Shown here: positions 4,662-34,703 of the stretch, piece by piece
Numbering within the stretch: position 1 is the first letter of the stretch
Layout: the number at the start of each line of letters is the position of its first letter
Source of the DNA: a bacterium
GTDB lineage: Bacteria; ARS69
Assembly: GCA_025774805.1 (NCBI GenBank)
Contig: JALGZR010000026.1
Coordinates: 1-36,662, forward strand
Reading direction: 5' to 3'
Length of the DNA stretch: 36,662 bases
Notes under the pieces: model-generated
The model's database searches: none
Told to the model about the DNA's origin: nothing
The model's input: only the letters and a program-made list of their open reading frames with translations
Program-made: the position numbers and the translations under genes

Positions 4662-4664
4662 GGC

Positions 4665-5390
4665 CTACGACTCCTTTCGCGACTCCAGGAGTCGGACGAC
4701 CGTGAACGACGTCTCGTCCATCGTGTCGCGGAAGGCGTCCACCCGGGTCGCGAAGTAGTTGTAGAGGACGGTGCCGACGACGGCCGTCGTCAGGCCCAGA
4801 GCCGTGTTGACGAGCGCCTCCGAGATTCCCAGTGCGAGCTGAGTCGCGTCCGGCGCGCCGGCGTGCGACATCGCCCGGAACGCGCGGATCATGCCGATCG
4901 TCGTCCCCAGCAGCCCGACGAGCGTCGCGATCGAGGCGATCGTCGAGAGGGCGGTGAGATTGCGCTCGAGAAGTGGGGTCTCCAGCGCACTCGCCTCCCG
5001 GATTGCGCGACGCGTCTCGTCGATCCGCTCCTTCGGGTCGCCCGCCTCATCGTCGGTCTCCGCGAAACGCTCGAGCCCCGCCCCTACGACGTTGGCGAGG
5101 CACCCCCCCTGACGACGACAGGCTTCGATCGCAGCCGACAAGTCCCCACCGTGCACCGCCTGCTTGACGTTCCGGATGAACTGCGGCACCCCGCCCCGAC
5201 CCCCGGCCCGCCAGAGCACGAGAAGCCGCTCGAGCCCGAACGTGAACGCCAGGAACAGGAGGGTGAGGCCGAAGACGAGCAGCGGTCCACCCTGCCGGAT
5301 GTACTCGGGGGAGCGATCCCATATGAACCACGAGATGACGACCGAGATCACGAAGACCACGATCAAGATCCAGTTCCGAAATCCGGACAT
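4665..5390 (-). CDS. ExbB/TolQ/MotA-family proton channel protein
   Basis: This 241-residue membrane protein has four likely helices: residues about 7-22, 35-56, 143-165 and 178-206. The last pair contains the family signature, TVGLLGTT-like (ATLVGLLGTTIGMIRAF) and ALGISEALVNTALGLTTAV. It would form the pentameric channel that houses the ExbD dimer in the inner membrane. ATG 5390 has AGAGGAG about 10 bases before it. An 83-base gap, in which I see nothing special, separates it from the TPR gene. An extra N-terminal helix places it in the MotA/TolQ group of FCB bacteria rather than enterobacterial ExbB. Confidence 0.9.
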   Translation of the reverse strand: MSGFRNWILIVVFVISVVISWFIWDRSPEYIRQGGPLLVFGLTLLFLAFTFGLERLLVLWRAGGRGGVPQFIRNVKQAVHGGDLSAAIEACRRQGGCLANVVGAGLERFAETDDEAGDPKERIDETRRAIREASALETPLLERNLTALSTIASIATLVGLLGTTIGMIRAFRAMSHAGAPDATQLALGISEALVNTALGLTTAVVGTVLYNYFATRVDAFRDTMDETSFTVVRLLESRKES

Positions 5391-7285: not shown

Positions 7286-8271
7286 GACGGGCTCCTTTCC
7301 TCGACCGGGTCCCGGTTCAAAAGGATCTCCCGGGCCGTCCGCCGGGCGGGAAGCCGGCCGGCGCGTTCGACCTGTCGTTGCCCGGCGTCGCTCACGAAGT
7401 GGGTCACGAGCATCGCCGCCTGAATGTCCTCGCCAGGGAGGCAGGCGACGAACAAGCGGTGATGGAGCGGATACGCGCCGGTTCCGATCGTCTCGTAGTC
7501 CGGAGGCACGGGCGGGCTCCCGGGGCGGACGCTCAGCGGCAGGGCCCGCGTGCCCGCGGGGGGAAGCTCGGCCAGGGCAAGCGTGGAGACCAGGCCGACT
7601 CCCGCGGGTTCGGCCCGGATCGTCTCCACCACCTCGGCCGGTCCGCGCAGAAACGTCACTCCCGGGTGTCTCGCGGGCTCGTCCTCGCCGGGGACCGGAC
7701 CGTTCCCTGCCAGGGCCGCGCGCAGAGCCGCCCAGGTTCCCCGGTTCGGGTCCGCGGCGAAGAGGCGCGGAGCTCGCGGGGACGGCACGCCGCGCACGAG
7801 ATCGAGGAGCTCGCCCGTGTCGAGCGACTCCATGGTCGAGATCTCGGCGACGAGCAGGACGAGGCCACCGACCGCCACCGGGAACCAGAGAACCGTATCG
7901 CCCCGAGCCTCGCGAAACCGGGCCTGCTCGTCGGGAGTCGGCGGGCGGGAGAGGAACGCCGCACCGGTCCGGCCGGCCCCCAGGGCTTCGAGGGCGCGGT
8001 TGGTCCCCCCGGAGCGGGATTCGATCGACAGGCTCGGGTGGTCGCGGCCGTACTGCTCGAGCAAGCGCGGAATGAGATCGGGGGCGAGATCGCCCCCGGT
8101 GACCACGAGCGACGCGGCCGGAGCCTGCGATGTCCCGCCGGTCCGCCCGGGAATCCAATCGGGAAGAGCCCGTCCGCCGCCGGGACGGTAGATCCAGATG
8201 ATCAGGACGATGGCGGCGTAGATCCCCCAGCGGACCCACCGCCATGCGCGTCGTCCTCTTCCCTCCGTCAT
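7282..8271 (-). CDS. PstS-like periplasmic binding protein, membrane anchored
   Basis: This 329-residue protein has an N-terminal anchor (residues about 11-28, RWVRWGIYAAIVLIIWIY) with no cleavage site or lipobox. A PBP-like fold follows. SLVVTGGDLAPDLIPRLLEQY is the usual first strand and helix, SRSGGTNRALEAL the anion-loop region, and AAFLSRPPTPDEQ and LVARAE-type strands come next. Known relatives bind phosphate, but in Bacteroidota-type TonB operons such proteins recur beside exbB/exbD/tonB, as I recall. Here there is no pstCAB. A structural or sensing role for the TonB system is therefore likelier than phosphate import. It is the first gene of the minus-strand operon and overlaps the TPR gene by 4 bases. 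Confidence 0.75.
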   Translation of the reverse strand: MTEGRGRRAWRWVRWGIYAAIVLIIWIYRPGGGRALPDWIPGRTGGTSQAPAASLVVTGGDLAPDLIPRLLEQYGRDHPSLSIESRSGGTNRALEALGAGRTGAAFLSRPPTPDEQARFREARGDTVLWFPVAVGGLVLLVAEISTMESLDTGELLDLVRGVPSPRAPRLFAADPNRGTWAALRAALAGNGPVPGEDEPARHPGVTFLRGPAEVVETIRAEPAGVGLVSTLALAELPPAGTRALPLSVRPGSPPVPPDYETIGTGAYPLHHRLFVACLPGEDIQAAMLVTHFVSDAGQRQVERAGRLPARRTAREILLNRDPVEERSPS

Positions 8272-8306
8272 GGGTCGTTCTCCTCCCGCGCTTCCCCGGA
8301 TTGGGG

Positions 8307-8336
8307 TTGCGCGATCTCTCGGACAGCCCCGAGAAT
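8307..8336 (+). promoter_or_regulatory. Weak candidate promoter for the GH144/ABC operon
   Basis: TTGCGC (8307-8312) and GAGAAT (8331-8336) stand 18 bases apart in the 71-base gap between the divergent PBP and GH144 genes. Transcription would begin almost at GTG 8343, so the message might be nearly leaderless. Both boxes are poor, and I rate this as a guess based on position. Confidence 0.2.
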
Positions 8337-8342
8337 CTGCCC

Positions 8343-9854
8343 GTGTTGCCGAGATTCCACCTCCCCGAGGCCCGCGCCGGCCGTCGCTCCACCCGGGGAC
8401 GAGGCCGGCCGCTTCTCGCGCTCGTCCTCGCCGGCGTCTCCGGGTGCGGGGGGCCGGGGTCGGGGGATTCCGTACCCGGGGAGGAGTCGACCCCCGGCGC
8501 GGGACGATCTTCTCGCGTAATCCATGAAACCGGTTTCATTCATACCCTAGAAGAGCGCACATTCCAATACTTCCTCGACACGACCCATCCCGAAACCGGA
8601 CTCGCCCCCGATCGGGCTCCCACGGAATCTTTCGCCAGCGTCGCCGCCACCGGGTTCGCGCTGAACGCGTGGCCAATCGGCGCGGAGCGGGGTTGGATCT
8701 CCCGGGAAGAGGCCCGGGACCGCGTCCTCCGAACCCTGCAATTCCTCTGGCGGGCACCCCAGGACTCGTCGGATGTCCGGGCCACGGGCACCCACGGTTT
8801 CTTCTATCACTTCCTGGAGCCGGGGACCGGTCACCGATTCGGCACGGTCGAGCTCTCGACCGTCGACACGGCGCTGCTGCTCGCCGGGGCGTTCTTCTGC
8901 CAATCCTGGTTCGTCGGCGACGATCCCGATGAGATCCGGATCCGTGCGCTCGCCGACTCCCTCTACCGCCGGGTCGACTGGAGATGGGCCTCCGTGCGCC
9001 CGCCGACGATCGGCCATGGCTGGACCCCGGAGCGCGGGCATCTTCCCTACGACTGGCGAGGCTACAACGAGGCGATGCTCGTCTACCTGTTCGCGCTGGC
9101 GTCTCCGACCCACGCCGTCGACGCCTCCGCCTGGCAGGCGTGGACCGCCGGGTACCGCTGGGGAGAGTTCGAGGGGCGGGAGCAGCTCGGCTTCGCGCCG
9201 CTGTTCGGGCATCAGTTCACCCACGTCTGGGTCGACTTTCGGGGGATCCGGGATGCGTTCATGCGGAAGAGAGGCTCCGACTACTTCGAGAACTCTCGGC
9301 GCGCGGTGCTCTCTCAGCGCGACTACGCCCGCGAGAATCCCGGGGAGTGGGTCGGTTACGGGGACGACCTCTGGGGACTGACCGCGTGCGACGGACCGGT
9401 GCACGGGGAGTTCGAAATCGACGGACGCATCCGCGAGTTTCGGACGTACTGGGCGCGCGGCGCCTCGTTCACGGAAATCTCCGACGACGGAACGATCTGT
9501 CCGTCCGCAGCCGCCGCGTCCATCGCGTTCGCCCCGGAGATCGTGGTGCCGACGCTCACCGCGATCGTCGAACGGTACGGCGAGAACGTGTACGGAGAGT
9601 GGGGGTTCCTTGACGCGCTGAATCCGACGTTCACGCTCGACGTCCCCGTTCAGCACGGCCGCGTCGATTCCGCACTCGGCTGGTTCGACACCGACTGCCT
9701 CGGGATCGACCAGGGGCCGATTCTCGCGATGATCGAGAACCACCGCTCACGGCTCGTCTGGCGCACGATGCGGAGCAACGAACACGTCGTGCGCGGCCTT
9801 CGGGCGGCCGGGTTCGCAGGGGGGTGGCTCGACTCGATTCCGGAGTCGCTTTGA
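8343..9854 (+). CDS. GH144-like (Pfam 'Glycoamylase') lipoprotein, probable beta-1,2-glucanase
   Basis: This 503-residue lipoprotein has a signal with lipobox LAGVSGC and lipid Cys35. An (alpha/alpha)6 domain of the Pfam 'Glycoamylase' family follows. The family includes GH144 endo-beta-1,2-glucanases and domains of cyclic beta-1,2-glucan synthases. Visible signatures are RTFQYFLDTTHPETGLAPDR, VELSTVDTALLLAG (E170), GYNEAM, LFGHQFTHVWVDFR (289-300), YFENSRRAVLSQRDYA, and GIDQGPILAMIEN. It would cut beta-1,2-glucan in the periplasm or at the membrane. The start is uncertain: GTG 8343 or TTG 8346 fit the signal, while 8244 would run into the divergent gene. Unlike its two relatives downstream it has no C-terminal sorting domain. 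It heads an operon with the sugar ABC transporter. An exo- or transglycosylating activity cannot be excluded. Confidence 0.8.
   Translation: MLPRFHLPEARAGRRSTRGRGRPLLALVLAGVSGCGGPGSGDSVPGEESTPGAGRSSRVIHETGFIHTLEERTFQYFLDTTHPETGLAPDRAPTESFASVAATGFALNAWPIGAERGWISREEARDRVLRTLQFLWRAPQDSSDVRATGTHGFFYHFLEPGTGHRFGTVELSTVDTALLLAGAFFCQSWFVGDDPDEIRIRALADSLYRRVDWRWASVRPPTIGHGWTPERGHLPYDWRGYNEAMLVYLFALASPTHAVDASAWQAWTAGYRWGEFEGREQLGFAPLFGHQFTHVWVDFRGIRDAFMRKRGSDYFENSRRAVLSQRDYARENPGEWVGYGDDLWGLTACDGPVHGEFEIDGRIREFRTYWARGASFTEISDDGTICPSAAAASIAFAPEIVVPTLTAIVERYGENVYGEWGFLDALNPTFTLDVPVQHGRVDSALGWFDTDCLGIDQGPILAMIENHRSRLVWRTMRSNEHVVRGLRAAGFAGGWLDSIPESL
8524..8539. promoter_or_regulatory. 16-bp perfect palindrome resembling a LacI-family operator
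   Basis: ATGAAACCGGTTTCAT is a perfect 16-bp palindrome with the AACCGGTT core typical of LacI-family operators. It lies inside the GH144 lipoprotein gene, about 180 bases after its start, at codons for HETGF. It may be an intragenic roadblock operator for the LacI protein encoded at 21843, or a chance product of codons. The two promoter-proximal sites near 21.6-21.7 kb share its AACCG-TT core. Confidence 0.3.
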
Positions 9855-11152
9855 GATCCCCGCGCGGGCCGATCGCGTTCCCGGCGGTCGCCCTCGTCGT
9901 TGCGCTTGCCGTGTCCGGTTGCGGATCACGCGGTGACGACGAGGCCGTGACCGTGAGGTTCTGGGCGATGGGGCGCGAAGGTGAGGTCGTGCGGGAGCTC
10001 GTCCCCGACTTCGAGCGGGAGAATCCCGGTCTTCGCGTGGATGTCCAGCAAATCCCCTGGTCGGCGGCCCACGAGAAGCTCCTCACGGCCCACGTCGGTC
10101 GCGCGACTCCCGACGTCGCGCAGCTCGGAAACACGTGGATCGCCGAGTTCGTCGCGTTGAACGCCATCCGGCCGCTCGAGCCGCTGGTCGCGGACCCCGC
10201 CACGTTCTTCCCCGGCATCTGGGAGACGAACGTGGTCGAGGGCGTCACGTGGGGCGTACCCTGGTACGTCGACACGCGCGTGCTGTTCTACCGGAGCGAT
10301 CTCTTCCGGCGGGCCGGTCATGAGGTGTTCCCGACGACATGGGACGCGTGGCGGCGCGCGCTCGAGGACGTCCGCGCGGTCCTCGGCGAGCGGGACTACC
10401 CGGCGTTCCTGCCCGCGAACGAGTGGCCGCTTCCCGTCATCCTCGGGCTTCAGGCCGGCTCGCCGCTGCTTGCGGAGGGAGACACGCGCGGCGCGTTCTC
10501 CGAACCCGCCTTCCGGCGAGCGTTCGACTTCGCGCTCGACCTGTACCGGAGGTGTCTCGCGCCCGCGATCGGCAACGCCGAGATCGGGAATCTCTACCAG
10601 GAGTTCGGACGGGGGCACATCGCCTCGCTCTTGACGGGACCGTGGAACCTCGGCGAGCTGGCGCGACGCCTGCCTGATTCACTCGCGGGCGCGTGGTCGA
10701 CCGCGCCCGTGCCGGGCCCGGAGGGCCCCGCGTCGGGAGTCTCCTTGGCGGGAGGCGCAAGCCTCGTGGTCTTCCGCGGGGCGCGGCACCCCGAGGCGGC
10801 CTGGCGGTTCATCACGTACCTCTCGCGGCCCGACGTCCAGTTGCGCTTCTATCGTCTGACCGGCGATCTGCCCGCCCGCGTCGAGCCGTGGGAGGAGCGG
10901 GAGCTCGCCCGCGATTCCCGCATCGCCGCGTTCCGCGAGCAGCTCGGGCGCGTCGTTTCCACCCCGAAGATCCCCGAATGGGAGCAGATCGCCTTCCGGG
11001 TGCAGAGCCGAGCCGAGGAGGCGATCCGGGGGGAGGCGACGGCCGAGGAGGCGCTCGCCCGCCTCGATGCCGACGTCGATCGGTTGCTGGAGAAGCGCCG
11101 TTGGTTGCTCCGGCGCCGGGCTGCGGAATCGGCCGAGGAAGGCACCTCGTGA
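9851..11152 (+). CDS. Sugar ABC transporter substrate-binding lipoprotein
   Basis: This 433-residue protein is of the MalE/UgpB type (SBP_bac_1). It has a lipoprotein signal with the lipobox LAVSGC, then VTVRFWAMGREGEVVRELVPDFERENP, PDVAQLGNTWIAEFVALNAI, GVPWYVDTRVLFYRSDLF, LLTGPWNLGEL, and GGASLVVFRGARHPEAAWRFI. These are the strands and hinge of an oligosaccharide-binding protein. I prefer TTG 9851, which overlaps the upstream stop (TTGA) and has GGAG 5 bases before it. GTG 9824 in frame is the alternative. From context its ligand is probably a beta-1,2-linked glucooligosaccharide, as for the sophoro-oligosaccharide-binding protein of Listeria; sequence alone does not show this. It is followed with overlap by two permease genes. 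Confidence 0.88.
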   Translation: MRSPRGPIAFPAVALVVALAVSGCGSRGDDEAVTVRFWAMGREGEVVRELVPDFERENPGLRVDVQQIPWSAAHEKLLTAHVGRATPDVAQLGNTWIAEFVALNAIRPLEPLVADPATFFPGIWETNVVEGVTWGVPWYVDTRVLFYRSDLFRRAGHEVFPTTWDAWRRALEDVRAVLGERDYPAFLPANEWPLPVILGLQAGSPLLAEGDTRGAFSEPAFRRAFDFALDLYRRCLAPAIGNAEIGNLYQEFGRGHIASLLTGPWNLGELARRLPDSLAGAWSTAPVPGPEGPASGVSLAGGASLVVFRGARHPEAAWRFITYLSRPDVQLRFYRLTGDLPARVEPWEERELARDSRIAAFREQLGRVVSTPKIPEWEQIAFRVQSRAEEAIRGEATAEEALARLDADVDRLLEKRRWLLRRRAAESAEEGTS

Positions 11153-12039
11153 TCGACACGCTCGAGCGCAGGCGCCGGCGCGCGGGGTGGACGTTCGTGG
11201 CCCCGGCGCTGCTGTTGATGGCGGTCTTCTTCGTCGGGCCGGTGACGTCCGGACTGCTTCTCAGTCTCACGGACTTCGATGTGTATGCGATCGGGTCCCC
11301 GTCCACCGCGCGATTCGTCGGGTTGAAGAACTACGCGACGGCGCTCGTCGATCCCGGATTCTGGCGCGCCGTCCAGAACACCCTGTTCTTCGTCGTCGTC
11401 GGTGGACCGCTAACGGTGGTCGTGTCGCTCGCCGCCGCGCTTCTCCTGAACGCCCGCGCGGTCCGCTTCCGCGGCTTCTTCCGCACCGTCTACTTCGCAC
11501 CGGTCGTCACGACGCTCGTGGCGGTCGCGGTCGTCTGGCGCTACCTCTATCACCCGCACTACGGGCTCCTGAATTACGCGCTCGGTTGGATTGGCGTCCC
11601 CCCGATCGACTGGCTCGGCGATCCCCTTTGGGCGATGCCGGCGATCGTGCTCCTCGCCGTGTGGAAGAACTTCGGCTACGCCATGCTCATCTTCCTCGCC
11701 GGGCTGCAGACGATCGAGGAAAGCCTGTACGAAGCCGCCTCCGTCGACGGCGCCGGTTCCTGGCGCCGGTTCCTGCACGTGACCCTGCCCGGGCTCGGCC
11801 CCACGTTCCTGTTCGTGACCGTCACGACGATGATCGGGCACTTCCAGCTCTTCGCGGAGCCGTACGTCATGACGCAGGGCGGCCCCGTGGGAGCCACGCG
11901 CAGTCTCGTCCTGCTCATGTACGAGGAGGGCTTTCGATGGTGGCGGATCGGGGAGGCTTCGACGATTGCGGTGCTGCTCCTCGGGATCACGCTGATCGGG
12001 GCGATCGTGCAGATGCGTTTCGCGGGGCAGCGGAGATGA
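11149..12039 (+). CDS. Sugar ABC transporter permease, MalF/UgpA type
   Basis: This 296-residue inner-membrane permease has six helices. The conserved cytoplasmic EAA loop reads EAASVDGAGSWRRFLHVTLP, the docking site for the ATPase. Other family marks are FVGLKNYATALVDPGFWRAV near residues 60-80 and TQGGPVGATRSL near the end. GTG 11149 overlaps the binding-protein stop (GTGA) and has GAGGAAGG 7 bases upstream. Its stop overlaps the next permease. With the second permease it would form the channel for the oligosaccharide held by the binding protein. No ATP-hydrolysing subunit is encoded in the window. Confidence 0.92.
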   Translation: MIDTLERRRRRAGWTFVAPALLLMAVFFVGPVTSGLLLSLTDFDVYAIGSPSTARFVGLKNYATALVDPGFWRAVQNTLFFVVVGGPLTVVVSLAAALLLNARAVRFRGFFRTVYFAPVVTTLVAVAVVWRYLYHPHYGLLNYALGWIGVPPIDWLGDPLWAMPAIVLLAVWKNFGYAMLIFLAGLQTIEESLYEAASVDGAGSWRRFLHVTLPGLGPTFLFVTVTTMIGHFQLFAEPYVMTQGGPVGATRSLVLLMYEEGFRWWRIGEASTIAVLLLGITLIGAIVQMRFAGQRR

Positions 12040-12878
12040 GCGCGGGCGTCATCGGGCCCCGTCGCCGGCTGCGGAGCGCAGGGAGGTTTCTCGTGCTCGG
12101 GCTCGGAGCCGTCATCACGCTCGCCCCGCTCGCCTGGATGGTCTCGGCGTCGTTCATGGTCGCGGGAGAGTCGACGGTCGTGCCGCCGCGCTTCTGGCCC
12201 CGGCACCCGACGCTCGAGCACTATGTCCATCTCTTCACCCGGCTCGATCTCGCACGGCACTTCCTGAACAGCGCCGTGATCGCCGTCTCGGCGACCGTGC
12301 TTTCGGTGCTCATCAATTCCCTCGCGGGGTACGCGTTCGCGAAGCTGCCGTTCGCGGGACGAGACCGTGTGTTCCGCGGAATGGCGCTCGCGCTCGTCGT
12401 TCCGGCCCAGGTGGGAATGCTCCCGCTGTTTCTGCTGCTGCGTGAGATGGGGCTCGTGAACACGTGGACCGGGGCCATCGTGCCGTACCTCGCGAGCGTC
12501 TTCGGCATCTTCATGGTCCGCCAGTATGCGCTGACGATTCCCGATGAGCTCCTTGATGCGGCCCGTGTTGACGGAGCGGGGGAGTGGCGATTGTTCGCGA
12601 CGATCGTGCTTCCGGTCCTGGCGCCCATCCTGGCGACGCTGGCCACGTTCACGTTCCTGAGCGCCTGGAACGATTTCCTGTGGCCGCTCATCATCCTGAG
12701 CGACTCGGCCCGTCACACGCTGCCCGTGGCGCTGGCGAACCTGTCCGGCGAGCACGTCCAGGACGCGGAGCTGATGATGGCGGGCTCCGTGCTGACGATT
12801 CTCCCCGCGATGGTGGTGTTTCTGATTTTCCAGAGAGCCTACGTGCGGGGGATCCTCTCCGGAGGTCTCAAGGAGTGA
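12036..12878 (+). CDS. Sugar ABC transporter permease, MalG type
   Basis: This 280-residue permease has an N-terminal helix (LVLGLGAVITLAPLAWMVSASF), then NSAVIAVSATVLSVLINSLAGYAFAKLPF. The EAA-like loop DAARVDGAGEWRLFATIVLP binds the ATPase, and the SAWNDFLWPLI signature near the end is typical of MalG/LacG proteins. ATG 12036 overlaps the malF-type stop (ATGA). It ends with the usual short cytoplasmic tail (YVRGILSGGLKE). A 20-base gap leads to the following lipoprotein gene, which therefore shares the operon. Confidence 0.92.
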   Translation: MSAGVIGPRRRLRSAGRFLVLGLGAVITLAPLAWMVSASFMVAGESTVVPPRFWPRHPTLEHYVHLFTRLDLARHFLNSAVIAVSATVLSVLINSLAGYAFAKLPFAGRDRVFRGMALALVVPAQVGMLPLFLLLREMGLVNTWTGAIVPYLASVFGIFMVRQYALTIPDELLDAARVDGAGEWRLFATIVLPVLAPILATLATFTFLSAWNDFLWPLIILSDSARHTLPVALANLSGEHVQDAELMMAGSVLTILPAMVVFLIFQRAYVRGILSGGLKE

Positions 12879-12898: not shown

Positions 12899-15800
12899 AT
12901 GATGACGCGACGCGGGGCGGGACTGCCTCGCCGGAGGAGTGTGCGACACGCGGCGGGGACCCTGGCCGCGGCGATCGCGACCCTGGCGATGGTCGCGGGC
13001 TGCGCCGGCCCGCGAGTCGGCGGCGAGCGGGGGCCCGGGGGCGGGGCGGTCCGGATGATCGATGACTTCGAGGCCGAGTCCGAGTGGACCACCCACCCGG
13101 CGGACGGTGTGCAGATGCGCCTGAGCGACGGCCCGGGCTGGGAAGGATCGGCGCTCCGCTTCGACTTCTCCTTCACCGGCGGCGGCTACGCGATCGCGCG
13201 ACGCGAGCTGGATCTCGAGCTCCCGGAGAACTGGGCGATCGACTTCCGTCTCCGCGGTCGGGGGGGACCGAACCATCTCGAGCTCAAGCTCATCGACGAG
13301 ACGGGAGAGAACGTCTGGTGGAGCGTGCGTCGCGACCTGGAGCTGCCCGAGGAGTGGACGCGCCTCACGACGAAGAAGCGACACGTCGAGTTCGCCTGGG
13401 GTCCGGCGGGCGGTGGGGAGATCCGCCGCATCTCCGCGATCGAGCTCGCGGTCACCGCGGGAAGCGGGGGGACCGGTACGGTCTGGATCGACGATCTGAC
13501 GATCCGCACGCTTGCGGTCGTCGTCGGCCCGCCTCCGGAGCCGATCGCGTTTGCGTCCTCGCCCGCCGACACGGGAGAAGAGGCGGTGGCGGGGCGCGCG
13601 ATCGACGGCGATCTCGACACGTGCTGGCGTCCGATGGCGACCGACCGGCGTCCCTGGCTCGCGCTCGATCTGGGAACCTCGCGCGAATTCGGCGGTCTGG
13701 TTGTCGACTGGCGCGACGGGGAGGCGTGGAGCGAGTACACCGTCGAGATCTCCGACGATCGTGAGACCTGGCGGGTGGTCCGGCGCGTGCGCGGGGGGAA
13801 CGGCGGCCGCGATCCCCACTTCCTGCCCGAGACGGAGTCGCACTACGTTCGCATCGCCGCGCCGCCGGGTGAGGGCACGGAGGCCGTCGGCCCGCCTAGG
13901 GGCGCGGTCGCGGAGCTGTCCCTTCGCCCGCTCGCGTGGTCGGCGAATCGGGAGGCGTTCTTCGCGGCGCTCGCCGCCGACGCGCCCCGCGGCACCTATC
14001 CACGGGGGATGCTGGGGGAGCAGTCCTACTGGACGCTCGTCGGCACGGACGGCGGCGTGTCGGAAGGGCTGCTCGACGAGGACGGCCGACTGGAACCGGG
14101 ACCGGGCTCGTTCTCGATCGAGCCGTTTCTTCACGTCGACGGCGAGCTCGCGACCTGGAGCGACGCGCTCGGCACAACATCGCTCGCGGAAGGTTCGCTT
14201 CCCATCCCGTCGGTCGCGCGTCGATTCGGCGATCTTGAGCTGCGCGTCGAGGCGTTCGCCGTCGGACCGTCCGAATCGCCGACGATCGTCGCGCGCTACC
14301 GGGTCGCGAACCTCGGCCCGGAATCGCGCGCGGCGACGCTCTTCCTCGCGCTGCGACCGTTCCAGGTGAACCCGCCATCGCAGACGTTGAACCTCCGCGG
14401 CGGGACGGCGCGCATCCGGCGGATCGAGGGAGGTCCTGTCGTGGCACGGGTGGAGCCCGGGGGAAGCGTGCGCTGTCTTCGCCCGGCGGCCGTGTTCGGA
14501 GCGGTCGCGTTCGACGGCGGCGAGCTCGTGAACGACTTCCTGCGGCACGGGGAGGTTCCACCCGCCTCGGGCGTCGAGGATCCGTTCGAGGCGGCGTCCG
14601 CGGCCTGGTCCCATCCGCTCGAGATCGCGTCGGGCGACACGGCCGAGGTGGCGATCGTCGTATCAACCCCGCCGGGTGCCGATCCCCTCGACGCCCCCTC
14701 CCTCGGACTCCCCGTACCGGGCGAAGGGGAGAGCCCATCCCGTGAATGGGTCGAGAGGAAGCTCGAGGCTGTCCGGGACGAGTGGCGCGCGACGCTCGAC
14801 CGCGTCGTCCTCCAGGGGCCCGCCGCCGCGACCCGGGTGCTCGAGACGCTTCGGGCCCAGCTCGCCTGGATCCTCGTGAACCGTTCCGGTCCCGCGATCC
14901 GACCGGGCTCGCGGTCCTATCGGCGTTCGTGGATTCGCGACGGCGCGCTCACGTCGATCGCTCTGCTGCGGATGGGACACGGCGATGCCGCGCGCGAATT
15001 TCTCGATTGGTACGCGCCCCACCAGTACCCGAACGGCAAGGTCCCTTGCGTCGTGGATGATCGCGGCGCCGACCCGGTTCCTGAGCACGACAGCAGCGGT
15101 GAGCTCATCCATCTGATCGCGGAGATCTACCGTTTCGAGGGCGATCGCGATCGCCTTCGGAGCCTGTGGCCGCGCGTCGCCTCGGCCGCCGACTGGCTCG
15201 ACACGCTGCGCCGGCAGAGATTGGGCGAGGAGTGGCGCACCGAGGAGCGCCGCCCGTTCTTCGGGATTCTCCCGCCCTCGATCAGTCACGAGGGGTACTC
15301 CGCGAAGCCGATGCACTCCTACTGGGACGATTTCTTCGCCTTCCGGGGATTCGAGGATGCGGTCTTCCTGGCGCGGGAGCTCGGGCACGAGGAGGAAGCG
15401 AAACGTCACGACGGGATCCGGCGCGAGTTCCGGCGCGATCTGGCGGCTTCCGTCGCCGCGGCCACGGATCGACACGGCATCGACTGGATCCCGGGCTGCG
15501 CGGATCTTGGAGACTTCGATCCGACCTCGACGACGATCGCGCTCTCCCCGACGGGGGCGGCCGAGATCCTGCCGCGGGAGATGCTGGAACGCACGTTTGA
15601 GCGCTACTGGGAGTTCTTCCGCGAACGCCGGGACGGCGCCCCGTGGACGGCGTTCACGCCGTACGAGGTCCGGAGCATCGGAGCGTTCGTCCGACTCGGC
15701 CGGCGGGACCGGGCGCTGGCGCTGATCGAATTCTTCCTCGACCACCGTCGTCCCGCCGGTTGGCGGCAGTGGCCCGAGGTCGTGAGAAGCGATTTGCGCG

Positions 15801-16195
15801 AAGCGGCGTTCCTCGGCGATCTCCCGCACGGCTGGGTCGCGTCGGACTGGATCCGGTCGATCCTCGATCTGTTCGCGTACCGGTCGACCGACGGCTCGAA
15901 GCTCGTGCTCGCCGCCGGGATTCCCGCGGACTGGCTCGTGCCGGGAGAGCCGGTGCGCGTGCACGGTCTGCGGACGGCCTGGGGATCGCTCGACTACACA
16001 CTCGAGACCGACGGGGAAACGGTGGAGCTCCGGATTGCAGGGACGCTTCGCGTGCCTCCCGGCGGCATCGTCGTCGATCCGCCGCTCCCGGTCGAGATGC
16101 GCACGGTGACGATCGCAGGGATCAAGCGGGGGCTCGATGCCCGGGTGCCGGTCATCGTGCGACGGGTGCCGGCGGAGGTTTGCTTCGCGCCCTGA
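12899..16195 (+). CDS. Large lipoprotein with CBM-like, F5/8-type and (alpha/alpha)6 glycosidase-like domains
   Basis: This 1,098-residue protein starts at ATG 12899 with GGAGGA just before it. It has a lipobox LAMVAGC near residue 30. Domains I can see are: residues about 44-205, a CBM11/CIA30-like sandwich (IDDFEAESEW...WIDDLTIRTL); about 214-345, a discoidin/F5-8C-type domain (AIDGDLDTCWRP, VEISDDRETWRVV); about 350-610, a second beta-sandwich; about 614-985, an (alpha/alpha)6 toroid with RSWIRDGALTSIALLRMGH, SYWDDFFAFRGFEDAVFLARELG and DWIPGCADLGDFDPTSTTIALSP; then a C-terminal beta domain. This is the six-hairpin glycosidase superfamily, and I cannot assign a CAZy family. It lies at the end of the GH144/ABC operon, so a role in trimming beta-glucan oligomers or side groups in the periplasm is likely but unproven. 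Confidence 0.75.
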   Translation: MMTRRGAGLPRRRSVRHAAGTLAAAIATLAMVAGCAGPRVGGERGPGGGAVRMIDDFEAESEWTTHPADGVQMRLSDGPGWEGSALRFDFSFTGGGYAIARRELDLELPENWAIDFRLRGRGGPNHLELKLIDETGENVWWSVRRDLELPEEWTRLTTKKRHVEFAWGPAGGGEIRRISAIELAVTAGSGGTGTVWIDDLTIRTLAVVVGPPPEPIAFASSPADTGEEAVAGRAIDGDLDTCWRPMATDRRPWLALDLGTSREFGGLVVDWRDGEAWSEYTVEISDDRETWRVVRRVRGGNGGRDPHFLPETESHYVRIAAPPGEGTEAVGPPRGAVAELSLRPLAWSANREAFFAALAADAPRGTYPRGMLGEQSYWTLVGTDGGVSEGLLDEDGRLEPGPGSFSIEPFLHVDGELATWSDALGTTSLAEGSLPIPSVARRFGDLELRVEAFAVGPSESPTIVARYRVANLGPESRAATLFLALRPFQVNPPSQTLNLRGGTARIRRIEGGPVVARVEPGGSVRCLRPAAVFGAVAFDGGELVNDFLRHGEVPPASGVEDPFEAASAAWSHPLEIASGDTAEVAIVVSTPPGADPLDAPSLGLPVPGEGESPSREWVERKLEAVRDEWRATLDRVVLQGPAAATRVLETLRAQLAWILVNRSGPAIRPGSRSYRRSWIRDGALTSIALLRMGHGDAAREFLDWYAPHQYPNGKVPCVVDDRGADPVPEHDSSGELIHLIAEIYRFEGDRDRLRSLWPRVASAADWLDTLRRQRLGEEWRTEERRPFFGILPPSISHEGYSAKPMHSYWDDFFAFRGFEDAVFLARELGHEEEAKRHDGIRREFRRDLAASVAAATDRHGIDWIPGCADLGDFDPTSTTIALSPTGAAEILPREMLERTFERYWEFFRERRDGAPWTAFTPYEVRSIGAFVRLGRRDRALALIEFFLDHRRPAGWRQWPEVVRSDLREAAFLGDLPHGWVASDWIRSILDLFAYRSTDGSKLVLAAGIPADWLVPGEPVRVHGLRTAWGSLDYTLETDGETVELRIAGTLRVPPGGIVVDPPLPVEMRTVTIAGIKRGLDARVPVIVRRVPAEVCFAP

Positions 16196-16245: not shown

Positions 16246-17637
16246 TCACGGATCGCCCCGCGGCGCCGCGTCGAGAACGGCGCCTCGTGTCCGGACGACG
16301 TCCCGGTAGAAGAGGGCGCTCTCTTTGAGGGTTCGCCGCTGCGTGGCGTAGTCCACGTGGACAATGCCGAACCGTTTCGACGTGCCGTGCGTCCACTCGA
16401 AGTTGTCGAGCAGTGACCAGACGAAGTACCCACGGAGATCGACTCCGCGCCGCCGCGCCTCCCGCGCGGCCCGTAGATGATCGCGGAGATACACGACGCG
16501 ACGTGGATCGGGAAGAGGTTCGACGTCCACGGCGGGCGGGTCGGGAAAGGCGGCGCCGTTCTCCGTCACGTAGATCGGGACGTCGCCGTAACGATCCCGT
16601 ACGTCGGTCAGCGCTCGCGTGAAGCTCGGGGCATGGATCTCCCATCCCAGATCCGTCACCGATCCCGGAGGTTCGACGGAGCACGCCCGCGTGGGGAACT
16701 TGTCGTCGGCGTGCGTGGTGACTCCGCGCGAGTAGTAGTTGACGCCGAGGAAATCGATCGGCTCGGCGATCGCCGTCCAGTCGGCATCCGGGAAGCGGGG
16801 CCAGTATTCCCCGTACATGTCGGCCAGCCCGTCCGCCGGACGCCCGAAGAAGACCGGATCGAGGGCCAATCGGTTCATGGCGATATCGGCACGTCGTGCC
16901 GCGTCGAGATCCTCGGTGGACCGGGACGCGGGGTCCTTCGGCTCGAGGTTGACGACGAGACCGATCTGCCCGCGGGCCTCCGCCCGGAAGACGCGGACCG
17001 TGTCGGCGTGCGCGCGGAGCAGACGAAATGCCACGGTCGCGGACTCTCGAGGATCGCGGTGGCCGGGCGGATGCGTCCCCTGGCCGTGCCCCGCTTCGAC
17101 GATGACCCACGGCTCGTTCAGGGTGATCCACGATCGGACACGGTCCCCGAGCGCACGGAACGCGACGGCGGCGTAGTCCGCGAACCAAGATGCCGAATCG
17201 GGGTGGATCCATCCCCCACGATCCTGGAGCGCCGCCGGAAGATCCCAGTGGTAGAGCGTGATCCAGGGTTCGATGCCCTTCGCCAGGAGAGCGTCGACGA
17301 GCCGATCGTAGAAACCGATCCCGGGCGCGTTCGGGCGGCCCCGACCCTCCGGCAGGATCCGGCCCCACGCGAGGCTGAACCGGTAGGCGCCGAGCTCCAG
17401 CCGTTCGAGAAGCGCCACGTCCTCCGGGAATCTCCGATAGTGGTCGCACGCGATGTCGGCCGTCTCGCCGTCGTGGATGCGCCCCGGGATCCGCTCGAAG
17501 TGGTGCCAGATGCTCGGGCCCGCCCCGTCGGCCAGAGGTGATCCCTCGATCTGATGGGCGGACGTGGCCGCGCCCCAGACGAAGTCCTCCGGGAAGAGCT
17601 CCGGCGAGGGGGCCTCGGGCGCACGCGTCCCGCTCAC
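16246..17637 (-). CDS. GH1 beta-glucosidase, cytoplasmic
   Basis: This 463-residue protein is a typical full-length GH1 TIM barrel without a signal peptide. The N-terminal FPEDFVWGAATSAHQIEG is the family start. E175 in TLNEPWV is the acid/base and E359 in YVTENGAA is the nucleophile. The sugar-binding WSLLDNFEWTHGTSKRFGIVHVDY is present near the end. It hydrolyses terminal beta-glucosyl residues. Beside the GH94 phosphorylase its natural substrate may be sophorose or short beta-1,2-glucooligosaccharides (inference). GTG 17637 overlaps the GH94 stop (GTGA). It is the last gene of a two-gene operon and converges with the lipoprotein gene 50 bases away. Confidence 0.93.
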   Translation of the reverse strand: MSGTRAPEAPSPELFPEDFVWGAATSAHQIEGSPLADGAGPSIWHHFERIPGRIHDGETADIACDHYRRFPEDVALLERLELGAYRFSLAWGRILPEGRGRPNAPGIGFYDRLVDALLAKGIEPWITLYHWDLPAALQDRGGWIHPDSASWFADYAAVAFRALGDRVRSWITLNEPWVIVEAGHGQGTHPPGHRDPRESATVAFRLLRAHADTVRVFRAEARGQIGLVVNLEPKDPASRSTEDLDAARRADIAMNRLALDPVFFGRPADGLADMYGEYWPRFPDADWTAIAEPIDFLGVNYYSRGVTTHADDKFPTRACSVEPPGSVTDLGWEIHAPSFTRALTDVRDRYGDVPIYVTENGAAFPDPPAVDVEPLPDPRRVVYLRDHLRAAREARRRGVDLRGYFVWSLLDNFEWTHGTSKRFGIVHVDYATQRRTLKESALFYRDVVRTRGAVLDAAPRGDP

Positions 17638-20600
17638 GGTGATCCCCCGTTCGACGCCGCTCCGAGCCGGATCTCGACGCGGTGCACCCGATCGTCCCGA
17701 GTCCAAGGAATCCGCGCACCGCCGTCTTCGACGGGCAGGGAGTCGCCGTCCAGCGTGGCGCTCACGATCGTCTCGGAGATTCCCGTCGGGTTCGAGACGC
17801 GGACGTCGTAGCGACCGAGCCCTCCCGGCGGCGCGAGACGCACCCGGTATCCCGGCCATTCGTCCGGAATGCACGGCCGGATCTCGTAGGCCTCTCCCGC
17901 GACCGCACGGATGCCGAGCAGGGACTCGATCGCGACCCGATACATCCACCCGGACGATCCCGTGTACCAGGTCCAGCCTCCCCGACCCACGTGGGGCGGC
18001 TCCCCGCAGAGATCGGCGGCGATCACGTAGGGCTCCACGCCGTAGACGGCCACCTCCTCGGGCGTGCGCGCGTGAAGGACGGGATTGAGGAGATCGAGCA
18101 GTGCCGCGACACGGTCGCGGCGACCCAGTCGGGCGAGCGCGCTCACGAACCAGAGCGCCGCGTGGGTGTACTGCCCTCCGTTCTCCCGAACTCCCCGCAC
18201 GTAACCTTTGATGTACCCCGGATCGTGGGAAGTGCTCTCGAACGGAGGAGCCAGGAGACGGATGATCCGGTCTCGCTCCGAGACCAGGTGTTGCTCCACC
18301 GCGTCGAGAGCGCGCTCGACACGCTCTCGCGGGGCCGCTCCCGAGAGGGCGGACCAGGCCTGGACGAGGGCGTCGATCCGGCACTCTCGGCTCTGCGCCG
18401 TTCCGAGCGGAGTTCCGTCGTCGTAGTACCCGCGGCGGTACCACTCTCCGTCCCAGCCGGCGGTCTCCAACGCGTCGCGCAGCGCGGTGCGGTACTCGCG
18501 ATACCGTCTCGCGAGTTCCTCGTCGCCGCGCTCCCCCACGAAGGGAAGGAAATCGCCCAGGGTTCGGTGCAGGAAGAACCCGAGCCAGACGCTCTCCCCC
18601 CGCCCGGCCCGTCCGACCCGGTTCATGCCGTCGTTCCAGTCGCCGGCGCCGAAGAGAGGCAGGCCGTGAGCCCCTCGCGTCAGCGAGCGGTCGAGCGCGC
18701 GGGTGCAGTGTTCGTAGAGGTCCGCCGTCTCGCCCGAGGGGTGGGGACGCACGAACGCTTCTTGCTCGCCGGGATCGAGGCTTCGGGCGGTGAGAAAAGG
18801 GGCGGACTCGCCGAGGATCGAGCGATCCCCGGTCGCCGCGACGTAGTCCGCCGTCAGGAACGGCAGCCAGAGAAGATCGTCGGCGAAACGCGTCCGAATG
18901 CCCGCGCCTCCCGGGGGATGCCACCAGTGCAGCACGTCACCCTCGACGAACTGATGGGCCGCATGGAGGAGAATCTGATCGCGAGTGATCCGGGGACGAA
19001 GATGGGTAAAGGCCGAGGCGTCCTGGAGCTGATCCCGGAAGCCGTAGGCTCCGCCCGATTGGTAGAACGCCGTGCGTCCCCAGATGCGACAGCTCAGCGT
19101 CTGGTAAGGGAGCCACGTGTTCACCATGCGATCGAGCGCGGGAGAGGGGGTCTCGATCTGCAGTCCCGATCCGAGCTCGCGCCAGCCCTCGACGGCCTCC
19201 CGCTCGCCGACGGCGACGGCCTCGGGCCGCGACCAGCGCTCCAGGAGCACGCGAGCCGACTCGGCGTTCTCGGCATCCCCGAGCGCGAACGCCACCTCCA
19301 CGGTCTCGTCCGGCTCCACCCCGATCTCCACCTGAAGCGTCGCGCACGGAGCGAGCCCGGCGCCGACGGGTCCCGGTAGGGGTCCCGGGCGGCGGAGTGC
19401 GATCGGAGCGGCGAGGTCGCCCCGCGGCCCGAGAAACGTCGCCCGGTCGCCTCCGCAGTGGACGGAGGCGTCCGCCGGCGACGCGACGACGGCCGCGAAC
19501 GCGACCCGCCCGGCCAGCTCGCCCCCGAAGCGGTTTCGGGCGAGGACCGCTCGCCGGGGAGCGTCGATCTCGGTGATCACGTTCAGGCCGGACACCCGCG
19601 GGGTCGACCCCAGGACCCATTGGGTGAAGGAGACCACGGAAAGGCGTCGGGTGCGTTCTGTTCGATTGTGCAGGCGGATGGTCGTGATCCGTAAAGGGTC
19701 GCGCGACGCCAGAAACGTGACGGTTTCGTGATCGATCCCACTCTCGCGGACGCGGAAGATCGATCGCCCGGGCCCGTGCCGTACCTCGTGATCCCCCCAA
19801 CCGGTCGTCGGTCCCGGCTGTGGCCCCCAGGTCTCCCGCGTCTCCTCGTCGCGGATGTAGAGAGCCTCTCCCCTCCCGTCGAGCAGCGGGTCGTTGTGCC
19901 ACGGTGTCAGACGATGCTCCCGACTATTCACGCTCCACGTACAGGCCGCGCCCGTCTCTCCGACGAGGCAGCCGAGCTTCTCGTTCGCGAGGACGTTGAT
20001 CCAGGGGCGGGGCGGGCGCCGCACGCGTCCGTGTCCGTCTCGTGAGAGACGCATCACGTACTCGTGTCCCTCGGCGGAGAACCCGCCGAACCCGTTGAAG
20101 AACTCGAGAGGTTCTCCCGTCGACGGATACGGGGGGGCCTGGGGCAGCGGGACGACGCGAGGGGGAATCGAGGGGGGCAGATCGGGTGCGTCCGGGCCGG
20201 ATGGATCCGCGTCGGTGGAGAGGTCGGGCCATGTGCCGTCGATCACCACCCCGGCTCGCGCCTCGAGGAAGTCGATCTCGTCCGGGGACAGCTCATCGGC
20301 GGCGAACGTTCGAAGCGCGCGGTCGTACGCACGGGTGTCCGAGGACACGGCGGTCGCTCGCAGCACCAGGCTCTGCAGAGGGAGCTTCCGGGCGCTCCAG
20401 GTGCTCTGGGCGCGGGCGAGCACCTCGAGAAAGGCCTCTCCACCCGGGCGGTCGGCTCGGAGGAGGACCATCACGTTCTCACCCTCGGGGAGAAGCTCGC
20501 GAGGAAGCCCCGACCGGTGGTGGGCGCGCGTGCGTGTCTCGGGGGATGCGCCGAGCCCGGGGTGACCGTAGAGGGCCGCGCCGGCCAGCGCCTGGAAGGC

Positions 20601-21530
20601 CTCGTCCTCCGCGGGGTCCGCTCCCGCCGCCCGCACGAACTCGCGATCCCTTCTTTCCTCTCCGAGGAGAATCTCGTCGATTGCCTCCGGGGGTGAGAGG
20701 TCTCGGATCGTGCGGAGCGCTTCCTCGCGGTGAGGCGCGACCCCCAGGAGGAAGGTGAGCGTGGTCACCCCTCCCGGCTCGAGCTCCACCGTCCGGCGAA
20801 ATGAGAGGGCGGGATCGAGCACGTTGCCGACCGACCCCGTGAGCCTCCCGGCGACGGGAATCGGAACCGGATCGCCGGCCAGCCGCGAGCGTCCGGGATA
20901 GAGCTCCCGATCCGACTCGAACTCGTAGGCGCCCGTTCCCGGAAGCGCGAAGAACAGAACGGGAAACGTCTCGTTCTCTCCCCGCGGCCGCCGGTTTGCG
21001 ATGAGGGCTCGCGTCCCCGGATCATGGTCCGTCTGAAGGAAGAGCTTCGAGAAGACCGGGTGCGCCTCGTGCGCGGCGCCGTCGTGGAGAACCACCTCGG
21101 CCGAGGTCGTGATCTCCACGACACGCGATCGGTCGGAGCGGTTCGCGAGGTAGAGCCGGCGGATTTCGACCGGATGGTCGGGGGCCACCGACGCCTCCAG
21201 ACGACTCTCGAGATCCCGGTGCCGTCGGCGGATCACGACGCGGCCGGGTTGCCACGTCGCGTCGCCCTCGTCGTCGGGACCTGGCCGGAGCGGGATTCCC
21301 GCCGACCAGGCGTGCCCCTCCGCGGGCTCCCGAAAGTGGGTGAGGACGCCATCCCGGTCCTCGAGAGGATCCCCGGCCCAGGCGGTCAGGAGGAGGTCTC
21401 CGGCCCGGACGAACCCGGTCCCCGCGGCGGTGATCACGCTCGTGATCGCTCCGCTGGAGAGGAACCGGGTCGGAGGCGTGGCGCCGGCCAGGCGCCCGAA
21501 AGGAGGCGGAGGGGGGAGGAGGGAGGTCAC
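17634..21530 (-). CDS. GH94 phosphorylase, 1,2-beta-oligoglucan phosphorylase/cyclic-glucan-synthase type
   Basis: This 1,298-residue cytoplasmic protein has no signal peptide. It consists of two GH94 beta-supersandwich parts (roughly residues 1-330 and 460-770), an (alpha/alpha)6 catalytic domain (about 780-1190) and a C-terminal beta domain. The catalytic signature DWND (964-967), in GAGDWNDGMNRVG, is followed by GESVWLGFFL. SHDPGYIKGYVRGVRENGGQYTHAALW and GGWTWYTGSSGWMYR complete the family marks. The DWNDGMNRVG and ESVWLG wording is that of 1,2-beta-oligoglucan phosphorylases and of the C-terminal part of cyclic beta-1,2-glucan synthases, not of cellobiose phosphorylase. It has no glycosyltransferase domain. 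It would split beta-1,2-glucooligosaccharides with phosphate, giving glucose 1-phosphate. At about 1,300 residues it is longer than the roughly 1,100-residue Listeria-type enzymes. GTG 21530 has GGAG 6 bases upstream. Confidence 0.85.
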   Translation of the reverse strand: MTSLLPPPPPFGRLAGATPPTRFLSSGAITSVITAAGTGFVRAGDLLLTAWAGDPLEDRDGVLTHFREPAEGHAWSAGIPLRPGPDDEGDATWQPGRVVIRRRHRDLESRLEASVAPDHPVEIRRLYLANRSDRSRVVEITTSAEVVLHDGAAHEAHPVFSKLFLQTDHDPGTRALIANRRPRGENETFPVLFFALPGTGAYEFESDRELYPGRSRLAGDPVPIPVAGRLTGSVGNVLDPALSFRRTVELEPGGVTTLTFLLGVAPHREEALRTIRDLSPPEAIDEILLGEERRDREFVRAAGADPAEDEAFQALAGAALYGHPGLGASPETRTRAHHRSGLPRELLPEGENVMVLLRADRPGGEAFLEVLARAQSTWSARKLPLQSLVLRATAVSSDTRAYDRALRTFAADELSPDEIDFLEARAGVVIDGTWPDLSTDADPSGPDAPDLPPSIPPRVVPLPQAPPYPSTGEPLEFFNGFGGFSAEGHEYVMRLSRDGHGRVRRPPRPWINVLANEKLGCLVGETGAACTWSVNSREHRLTPWHNDPLLDGRGEALYIRDEETRETWGPQPGPTTGWGDHEVRHGPGRSIFRVRESGIDHETVTFLASRDPLRITTIRLHNRTERTRRLSVVSFTQWVLGSTPRVSGLNVITEIDAPRRAVLARNRFGGELAGRVAFAAVVASPADASVHCGGDRATFLGPRGDLAAPIALRRPGPLPGPVGAGLAPCATLQVEIGVEPDETVEVAFALGDAENAESARVLLERWSRPEAVAVGEREAVEGWRELGSGLQIETPSPALDRMVNTWLPYQTLSCRIWGRTAFYQSGGAYGFRDQLQDASAFTHLRPRITRDQILLHAAHQFVEGDVLHWWHPPGGAGIRTRFADDLLWLPFLTADYVAATGDRSILGESAPFLTARSLDPGEQEAFVRPHPSGETADLYEHCTRALDRSLTRGAHGLPLFGAGDWNDGMNRVGRAGRGESVWLGFFLHRTLGDFLPFVGERGDEELARRYREYRTALRDALETAGWDGEWYRRGYYDDGTPLGTAQSRECRIDALVQAWSALSGAAPRERVERALDAVEQHLVSERDRIIRLLAPPFESTSHDPGYIKGYVRGVRENGGQYTHAALWFVSALARLGRRDRVAALLDLLNPVLHARTPEEVAVYGVEPYVIAADLCGEPPHVGRGGWTWYTGSSGWMYRVAIESLLGIRAVAGEAYEIRPCIPDEWPGYRVRLAPPGGLGRYDVRVSNPTGISETIVSATLDGDSLPVEDGGARIPWTRDDRVHRVEIRLGAASNGGSP

Positions 21531-24829: not shown

Positions 24830-24920
24830 CCGTTCGGTGCCGGAGACGGTCGGGTCCTGGCGGGCGGCGAGCCGAGCTCTCGCGCCCGCCGTCCCCGGCT
24901 CTCCGGGAGGACGCGTTGTC

Positions 24921-34657: not shown

Positions 34658-34703
34658 TTCGATGTTCCTGACGATGTCGCTTCCTCCATCCCGGATCGCT
34701 TTC

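Follow-up and report, generated by a model that had tools for sequence, protein, structure and literature searches.

The window, a stretch of 36,662 nucleotides, raises the question of what a 1,098-residue protein does when its gene follows those of a beta-1,2-glucanase and an ABC importer (Table 1). The original prediction placed this gene at the end of their operon and proposed a new activity, such as debranching or removing substituents from glucan oligomers. The gene is real: its frame reads through to a stop, GGAGG lies upstream of the ATG, and 20 bp separate that ATG from the malG stop (12878). Gene order and spacing are the basis on which co-transcription with the upstream genes is suggested. 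XcSGL, the closest solved GH144 structure, is a proven beta-1,2-glucanase (PMC12102758), and beta-1,2 bonds are therefore already covered at the locus. No GH186 (MdoG) was found in the genome that the window comes from, so the bacterium probably eats foreign glucans.

Table 1 Features of the locus and of the 1,098-residue protein, in window coordinates.
Feature	Position	Strand	Basis
GH144-type beta-1,2-glucanase (Pfam Glycoamylase)	8244..9854	+	Pfam; closest PDB 8XUL (XcSGL); start uncertain
ABC solute-binding protein	9824..11152	+	relatives 3UOR and sophoro-oligosaccharide-binding Lin1841
ABC permease (MalF type)	11143..12039	+	start approximate
ABC permease (MalG type)	12036..12878	+	start approximate
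Exported GH15-like protein, 1,098 aa	12899..16195	+	translation, relatives, structure model
Signal sequence with lipobox-like VAGC, Cys35	12899..13003	+	read directly from translation
CBM11/CIA30-like beta-sandwich, residues 47-213	13037..13537	+	structure matches
F5/8 type C (CBM32-like) domain, about residues 214-346	13538..13936	+	Pfam and structure match
Beta-sandwich domain ahead of barrel, about residues 346-605	13934..14713	+	model, structure comparison
Helix-loop-helix and (alpha/alpha)6 barrel, about residues 611-992	14729..15874	+	model, profiles, alignment
W678-I-R680-D681, likely subsite -1 motif common to GH15	14930..14941	+	profile alignment, conservation
E798, candidate general acid, loop alpha5->alpha6	15290..15292	+	80/80 rows; role inferred
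D810-D811, alternative acid, start of helix alpha6	15326..15331	+	80/80 rows; role inferred
E960, candidate general base, loop alpha11->alpha12	15776..15778	+	78/78 rows; role inferred
C-terminal beta domain, residues 993-1098	15875..16192	+	model
GH1 beta-glucosidase	16246..17607	-	start approximate
Neighbouring gene	17634..21530	-	
LacI-type regulator	21843..22943	+	
TonB-dependent receptor	24837..27593	+	
Second GH144-type protein	31988..33652	+	weak Por_Secre_tail match

Relatives of the protein occur at no fewer than 283 loci, and we judged their distribution from the nearest 80; 74 relatives share 35-57% identity with it over nearly their full length. Among 45 relatives' loci of at least 20 kb, a GH144 glucanase gene was present in 42 and an ABC importer in 40, so the predicted link to glucanase and importer stands as a conserved association. 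Two of the 45 (L047 and L072) had none of the beta-1,2-glucan genes looked for, and Pfam gave GH30, other or no domains for two genes near each. A close homologue was present in 57 of 119 genomes from one family; each of the 57 also had a strong GH144 match, linked within 12 kb in 54. This count did not score as strong GH144 five genomes with a weak GH144-type match only (G003, G012, G023, G095 and G111; four of these matches lie in frames of roughly 2,500-3,000 codons and one in a 147-codon fragment), nor as close homologues two genomes carrying only a 36% paralogue (G017 and G092). Neighbours were clustered from codon-position gene calls; raw stop-to-stop frames were confounded by antisense frames in GC-rich DNA. 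A GH15 gene was near only two of 82 stretches (about 8 kb away at L073, where the gene beside it is presumably otsA, and adjacent at L117) and is therefore not a component of the locus. In Xanthomonas sacchari the genes stand in the same order and the frame, of 1,150 codons, is intact; Xanthomonas campestris makes the cyclic glucan C-beta-G16-alpha (PMC11228985). We found no description of this recurring locus component in the open-licence papers searched.

The protein begins with a signal sequence in which residues 32-35, VAGC, are lipobox-like. Of 76 relatives whose N-terminus could be read, however, a simple test found a lipobox in only 15 (three others are cut by contig edges), and for the family 'exported' is for that reason a safer word than the lipoprotein of the original prediction. 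Behind the signal sequence, both accessory domains foreseen from the sequence were recovered. Residues 47-213 matched the CBM11 structure 6r3m (Z 19.0, 162 aligned, 3.4 A) and the complex I assembly entry 7zkq (Z 16.3), and residues 211-346 matched the CBM32/F5-8C structure 4zz5 (Z 18.0, 123 aligned, 2.3 A), in a region with a Pfam F5_F8_type_C match of 1e-15. The structure model of residues 346-1098 (mean pLDDT 94.9, pTM 0.95) is predicted to comprise a beta-sandwich, a helix-loop-helix and an (alpha/alpha)6 barrel, in line with the six-hairpin toroid first proposed.

To which family does this catalytic part belong? Searches of Pfam and NCBIfam placed it in no family above cut-off, and RefSeq names the relatives 'discoidin domain-containing protein'. 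As far as these libraries reach, the view that the protein fits no named GH family was upheld; no characterised family matched clearly. PF00723 (GH15) did not match the window protein, and of seven further members only L072 matched, at 17.7 bits against a cut-off of 22. In 40 genomes, none of the listed PF00723 matches fell at a place listed for this protein's family. The best NCBIfam matches of the window protein and three of four further members, all far under cut-off, were TIGR01577 and TreH1, which are GH15-type. PF17167 (GH94) was absent from the matches of the window protein (E up to 1) and of the seven members, as was PF10091 (GH144). By these tests the family lies outside GH15, yet it is close to it.

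This closeness was apparent in profile-profile comparison, where the barrel matched GH15 at 76-97% over 337-355 columns, whichever of the two directions or modes was used. In the comparison with nine families, no pair outside GH15 exceeded 72%, and the stronger ones spanned only part of the domain. The second-best barrel profile, amylo-alpha-1,6-glucosidase (Pfam GDE_C, one sequence), reached 64-72% over 188-190 columns locally, and its structure 7vma gave Z 26.3; however, that local alignment covers the first half of the barrel only, and global modes gave 0.1-2.5%. GH65 and GH125 gave 0.0-0.7% (small, shallow sets of 7 and 5 sequences). GH144 and the clan GH-S beta-1,2-glucanases belong to the (alpha/alpha)6 fold class as well (PMC12102758) and occur at these loci, but showed no profile similarity to the barrel (0.0-0.6%). 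A PDB profile search with the 80-row alignment ranked isomaltose glucohydrolase (GH15) best at a non-significant E of 0.2. In the VIA structure comparison, the GH15 dextran dextrinase 9ju0 came top (Z 31.8, 571 aligned, 3.8 A), followed by glucoamylase 1lf6 (GH15; Z 29.4, 555 aligned, 3.7 A), isomaltose glucohydrolase 5z3c (GH15; Z 29.0, 319 aligned, 3.2 A) and 1ug9 (Z 28.7, 557 aligned), with GH116 and GH65 tying with the 1lf6 and 5z3c rows. Of the GH15, GH65, GH94 and GH144 toroids proposed for comparison, profile, loops and motif thus favour GH15, whereas Foldseek put the beta-phosphorylase family GH94 first (E 4.6e-18), and GH94 matched at 65% over 555 columns when the catalytic region was compared as a whole. 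The window protein shares with GH15 the same succession of beta-sandwich, helix-loop-helix and barrel, but differs in its additional CBM11- and CBM32-like domains and in a family setting among beta-1,2-glucan genes.

We then located candidate catalysts. Alignments of 75, 80 and 70 rows were used, from which L005 was dropped (10 unknown residues); the 75- and 70-row sets leave out five close Duganella-type rows or similar, and the latter some more. In the 80-row alignment of the window protein and its relatives, RSWIRDG and SYWDDF are invariant or near-invariant and D872 and D874 of the PGCADLGDFD motif are kept in 79 of 79 rows, bearing out the conserved acidic motifs reported earlier. W678, R680 and D681 are present in all 80 rows and align with the W-I-R-D of GH15, whose counterpart in dextran dextrinase is W540, R542 and D543 (PMC12446779). 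In GH15 enzymes loop alpha5->alpha6 carries the general acid and loop alpha11->alpha12 the general base, both of them Glu, and dextran dextrinase has an O6-binding Glu in these loops (PMC12446779). We assigned the acid and base positions by loop topology and profile alignment. With helices taken from the model, Glu798 is the sole invariant acid of loop alpha5->alpha6, and loop alpha11->alpha12 holds Glu960 and Asp974; the paired acidic residues expected in the cleft would accordingly be an invariant Glu pair in the two loops that bear the GH15 catalysts, and both are kept in seven of seven paralogues (34-37% identity). The hhalign alignment did not bring E798 onto the GH15 acid, D810 and D811 are as invariant as E798, and the candidate acid stands in a His-Glu-Gly context versus Trp-Glu-Asp in dextran dextrinase. 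As a lead only, W916 (77 of 79 rows) lies 44 residues ahead of E960; in glucodextranase the base, Glu628, comes 46 residues after Trp582. Trp582 is the alpha-1,6 specificity Trp of that enzyme (PMC12446779).

The closest likeness is to enzymes that clip alpha-linked glucose, and the protein may therefore remove a bond that its neighbours cannot. The reading we lean towards, tentatively, is an exported GH15-like exo-alpha-glucosidase, most plausibly one that cuts the alpha-1,6 bond of alpha-1,6-cyclised beta-1,2-glucans. W678-x-R680-D681 would hold the terminal glucose in subsite -1, Glu798 would protonate the leaving oxygen and Glu960 would activate water, inverting the anomer. Alpha-linked glucose beyond the reach of GH144, the importer, GH94 and GH1 would be removed in the periplasm or at the outer membrane. 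The best candidate bond would be the single alpha-1,6 linkage of rings such as C-beta-G16-alpha of Xanthomonas, after GH144 has cut them. An exo-acting enzyme would need the non-reducing end to carry the alpha-linked glucose, and cutting the ring does not by itself produce such an end. The initial suggestion of debranching or substituent removal now appears too broad, as sequence and model point to a GH15-like alpha-glucosidase over GH65, GH94 and GH144. In a bolder version, conceivable though doubtful, the protein founds a new GH family next to GH15 and breaks the alpha-1,6 closure bond, either as ring opener or as exo-enzyme after GH144.

The main rival, which we consider rather unlikely, would have the protein trim sophoro-oligosaccharides ahead of their import as an exo-type hydrolase (or phosphorylase) specific for beta-1,2 bonds, akin to the sophorose-releasing GH144 exo-enzyme or the GH3 enzyme found in other clusters. 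The rest of the locus is beta-1,2-glucan machinery, fold comparison places GH94 and GH116 high, and there is an exo-type GH144 enzyme that releases sophorose (PMC11842490). GH94, which has a gene in the window locus and a similar beta-sandwich and barrel, nevertheless already covers beta-1,2 cleavage together with GH1 and GH144, and the barrel profile that reaches 76-97% with GH15 gives only about 4% with GH94 and under 1% with GH144. An exo-alpha-glucosidase for some other alpha-linked glucose or sugar on beta-1,2-glucans would share all of the catalytic evidence, and natural substituents are described as incompletely known (PMC11842490); as alpha-1,6 is the only alpha-glucosidic bond of these glucans that the review section consulted names, we regard this as unlikely.

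An alpha-L-rhamnosidase-type (GH78-like) enzyme, with which the protein shares a six-hairpin barrel, is suggested by PF17389 (Bac_rhamnosid6H), which matched the window protein at 2e-4, under cut-off, and rose above it in two of seven further members and in several members in the genomes scanned. These matches are partial, spanning about 145-190 of 339 positions, the profile-profile match was 0.1-6.5% (one GH78 sequence), and no rhamnose-related gene was prominent among recurring neighbours, most clusters of which had no Pfam annotation; we find a rhamnosidase improbable. Two carbohydrate-binding-type domains would suit a non-catalytic surface glycan-binding protein, but the barrel acids are invariant and kept even in distant paralogues, making this the least credible reading.

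Exploring such loci has yielded beta-1,2-glucan enzymes before. Were the alpha-1,6 assignment false, the family would still be large, conserved, unnamed and hydrolase-like, and its substrate class could be put to a sharp test. If true, the protein would complete degradation of the alpha-1,6-cyclised glucans that Xanthomonas, Ralstonia and Cereibacter make, and would be of use in analysing them. Should it indeed found a new family with that role, bacteria of many phyla could eat or recycle osmoregulated periplasmic glucans, one of which is linked to Xanthomonas virulence.

The window protein is encoded by a single-copy gene in its own genome (threshold E 0.001), and the open reading frame of the original prediction proved sound in its ribosome-binding site and its spacing from the permease gene. 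Structure models of the product (mean pLDDT 92.7 for the N-terminal part and 94.9 for the catalytic part) bore out the CBM11-like and discoidin-type domains and the (alpha/alpha)6 barrel that had been read from the sequence.

Layout of the window-protein gene and of the domains of its product
Feature	Position	Detail
ORF	12899-16195 (+)	1,098 residues; preceded by GGAGG, Shine-Dalgarno-like
Gap between MalG-type permease gene and ORF		20 bp
N-terminal signal		lipobox-like VAGC
CBM11-like sandwich	residues 47-213	6r3m Z 19.0, 162 aligned, 3.4 A
CBM32/F5-8C domain	residues 211-346	4zz5 Z 18.0, 123 aligned, 2.3 A; Pfam 1e-15
Beta-sandwich	residues 346-605	predicted model
Helix-loop-helix and (alpha/alpha)6 barrel	residues 611-992	predicted model
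Small beta domain	C-terminal to residue 992	

Searching Pfam and NCBIfam with the window protein returned 0 GH models above cut-off, in agreement with the earlier statement that it could not be placed in a named GH family. Fold comparison of the catalytic model, as originally proposed, placed GH94 first by Foldseek (E 4.6e-18; TM by query 0.59); GH116 and GH15 entries also lay among the first 22 rows. By VIA structure comparison, GH15 came first, with dextran dextrinase (Z 31.8, 571 aligned, 3.8 A) and glucoamylase (29.4, 555, 3.7 A), then isomaltose glucohydrolase (29.0, 319, 3.2 A) and glucodextranase (28.7, 557, 3.5 A); GH116 (28.8, 5.5 A) and GH65 (28.8, 4.7 A) were level with the last three GH15 rows at larger rmsd. 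To tell these fold matches apart, we compared profiles with GH15, GDE_C, GH94, GH78, GH37, GH65, GH125 and GH144. The barrel profile scored 76-97% against GH15 (22 sequences; 337-355 columns, four runs), 64-72% against GDE_C, the amylo-alpha-1,6-glucosidase family (one sequence; 188-190 columns, local mode), 0.1-4% against GH94 (23 sequences), 0.1-6.5% against GH78 (one sequence) and 0-1.2% against GH37 (8), GH65 (7), GH125 (5) and GH144 (55). Under the same procedure, known families scored at most 71% against one another, and their best pairs covered few columns (GH65-GH94 72-75, GH15-GH94 131-132); judged by profiles, the window-protein family is thus closer to GH15 than the sampled known families are to one another. 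However, the entire catalytic region scored 65% against GH94 over 555 columns.

Invariant barrel acids (80 rows, gaps set aside) include D681, E729, D731, E798, D810, D811, D874, E923, E960 and D974. GH15 enzymes are described as having their acid in loop alpha5->alpha6 and their base in loop alpha11->alpha12 (PMC12446779). In our model, E798 is the sole invariant acid of the former loop, and the latter holds E960 and D974, 14 apart. Dextran dextrinase uses R542 and D543 to bind O4 and O6, its W540 stacks against the sugar, and E874, 16 residues past E858, binds O6 (PMC12446779). W678-x-R680-D681 of the window protein aligned with the GH15 motif, and hhalign matched E960 to a Glu, taken as base, in the A-E segment of GH15; E798 was not aligned with the GH15 acid. 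On the model, the two families would share acids in the same two loops as well as the W-x-R-D motif. The mode of action of the window protein is most likely that of GH15 enzymes, and we leave it out of that family because the Pfam model PF00723 fails to recognise it.

A scan of genome contigs gave 365 pattern matches, at least 283 of them relatives, and we retained the best 80 of the 283 for alignment and locus counts (74 aligned, 35-57% identity). Relatives occur in Gemmatimonadota, Krumholzibacteriota, Eisenbacteria, Acidobacteriota, Planctomycetota, Ignavibacteria, Opitutaceae and others, and among Proteobacteria in Duganella, Lysobacter, Luteimonas and Dyella. Partial matches passed the cut-off of Bac_rhamnosid6H, a GH78-type model, in 2 of 7 members and in several more from a further genome set. 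RefSeq labels three of four plasmid-borne relatives "discoidin domain-containing protein"; the fourth has no RefSeq gene listed, yet an intact 1,150-codon frame is present. On Methylosinus plasmid pMSC49c (L168, 4124-12097), the surroundings of a 35% relative include a gene annotated as GH15, one for phosphoenolpyruvate synthase and a cluster encoding an F-type ATP synthase; another relative (L169) sits amid mobile elements.

The order GH144, solute-binding protein (SBP), MalF, MalG, window-protein homologue, GH1/GH94 recurs across phyla. Among the best 80 of 283 loci, GH144 neighbours the homologue in 61, ABC genes in 65, GH1 or GH94 in 57 and any of these in 75; among the 45 loci of at least 20 kb the counts are 42, 40, 35 and 43. 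The earlier interpretation held up in part. The predicted placement with a beta-1,2-glucanase and importer recurs (42/45 and 40/45 loci); "debranching or removing substituents" was too broad and is narrowed to a probable GH15-like alpha-glucosidase activity. GH144, ABC, GH1 and GH94 genes are all missing from two of the long loci, L047 and L072, although each has a full-length relative, and L072 has a GH30 gene nearby; in one genome (L117, 5813-10922) a true GH15 gene lies immediately 3' of the homologue in the same direction. Across 119 genomes from the family of Luteimonas mephitis (source of L073), 60 carried a strong GH144, and 57 of these also a close homologue; three had GH144 alone, none the homologue alone, and 59 had neither. 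Fisher's p of 8e-31 overstates this association because the genomes are related. The two genes lay within 12 kb in 54 of 57 genomes and on separate contigs in three. Xanthomonas sacchari has LacI, TonB, GH144, SBP, two permeases and the homologue, followed on the opposite strand by edd, pgl, glk and zwf.

Some genomes encode a paralogue (34-37% identity) that keeps E798, D810, D811 and E960 in 7/7 and changes at W678, D720, D725 and W958. GH144 is absent from six of the seven stretches and present in L162. Retained candidate catalytic acids and a mostly absent GH144 fit one chemistry on differing substrates. The paralogue probably has a related activity on another substrate. Six copies (L159, 7560-10745; L160, L161, L163, L164, L165) carry an F5/8C domain and lie in stretches free of GH144; in L159 and L160 the paralogue lies upstream of two large genes, one of which, judged by eye, resembles a flavoprotein gene.

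In the window, the solved structure nearest to the upstream GH144 protein is XcSGL from Xanthomonas campestris (8XUL, E 2.7e-157), a demonstrated beta-1,2-glucanase (PMC12102758). The SBP is nearest to 3UOR from Xanthomonas citri, listed with unknown specificity (PMC7676653), and second to Lin1841 (E 2.8e-64), which binds sophoro-oligosaccharides (PMC12369401). Downstream lie a GH1 beta-glucosidase, a LacI regulator, a TonB receptor and more GH144 genes. A third GH144-type gene (34662-36314, +) apparently occupies two frames (34662-35036, matching the second window GH144 at 48%, and 35175-36314), through a frameshift, pseudogenisation or an assembly error. The GH144-type proteins at 31988-33652 and 35175-36314 each match Por_Secre_tail (type IX sorting) weakly, one at cut-off, near a protein taken as PorV-like without a Pfam match, which hints at type IX secretion in the phylum (5 genomes searched). 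TonB, ExbD-type and ExbB genes followed by a TPR protein (2939-5390, -) form an energising system near the glucan locus. Two large proteins (22925-24829 and 27597-30926), one with CBM9-like and FlgD-type matches and the other without a Pfam match, recur next to the TonB receptor in some relatives.

A linear beta-1,2-glucan should need GH144, importer, GH94 and GH1 alone. Natural beta-1,2-glucans are reported also to bear acyl groups, phospho groups and beta-1,6 side chains, and in Ralstonia, Xanthomonas and Cereibacter the cyclised glucans contain one alpha-1,6 bond (PMC11842490); C-beta-G16-alpha, the alpha-1,6-cyclised glucan of Xanthomonas, has exactly one (PMC11228985). Because the window protein is GH15-like, exported and co-inherited, the alpha-1,6 bond would be its best-fitting target. 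Were it an exo-enzyme, it could act only on an alpha-linked unit that lies open at the non-reducing end. Extracellular GH144 would cleave the glucan, the TonB receptor import it and periplasmic GH144 shorten it; the window protein would then take off the alpha-linked glucose, before the ABC importer and then GH94 and GH1 act.
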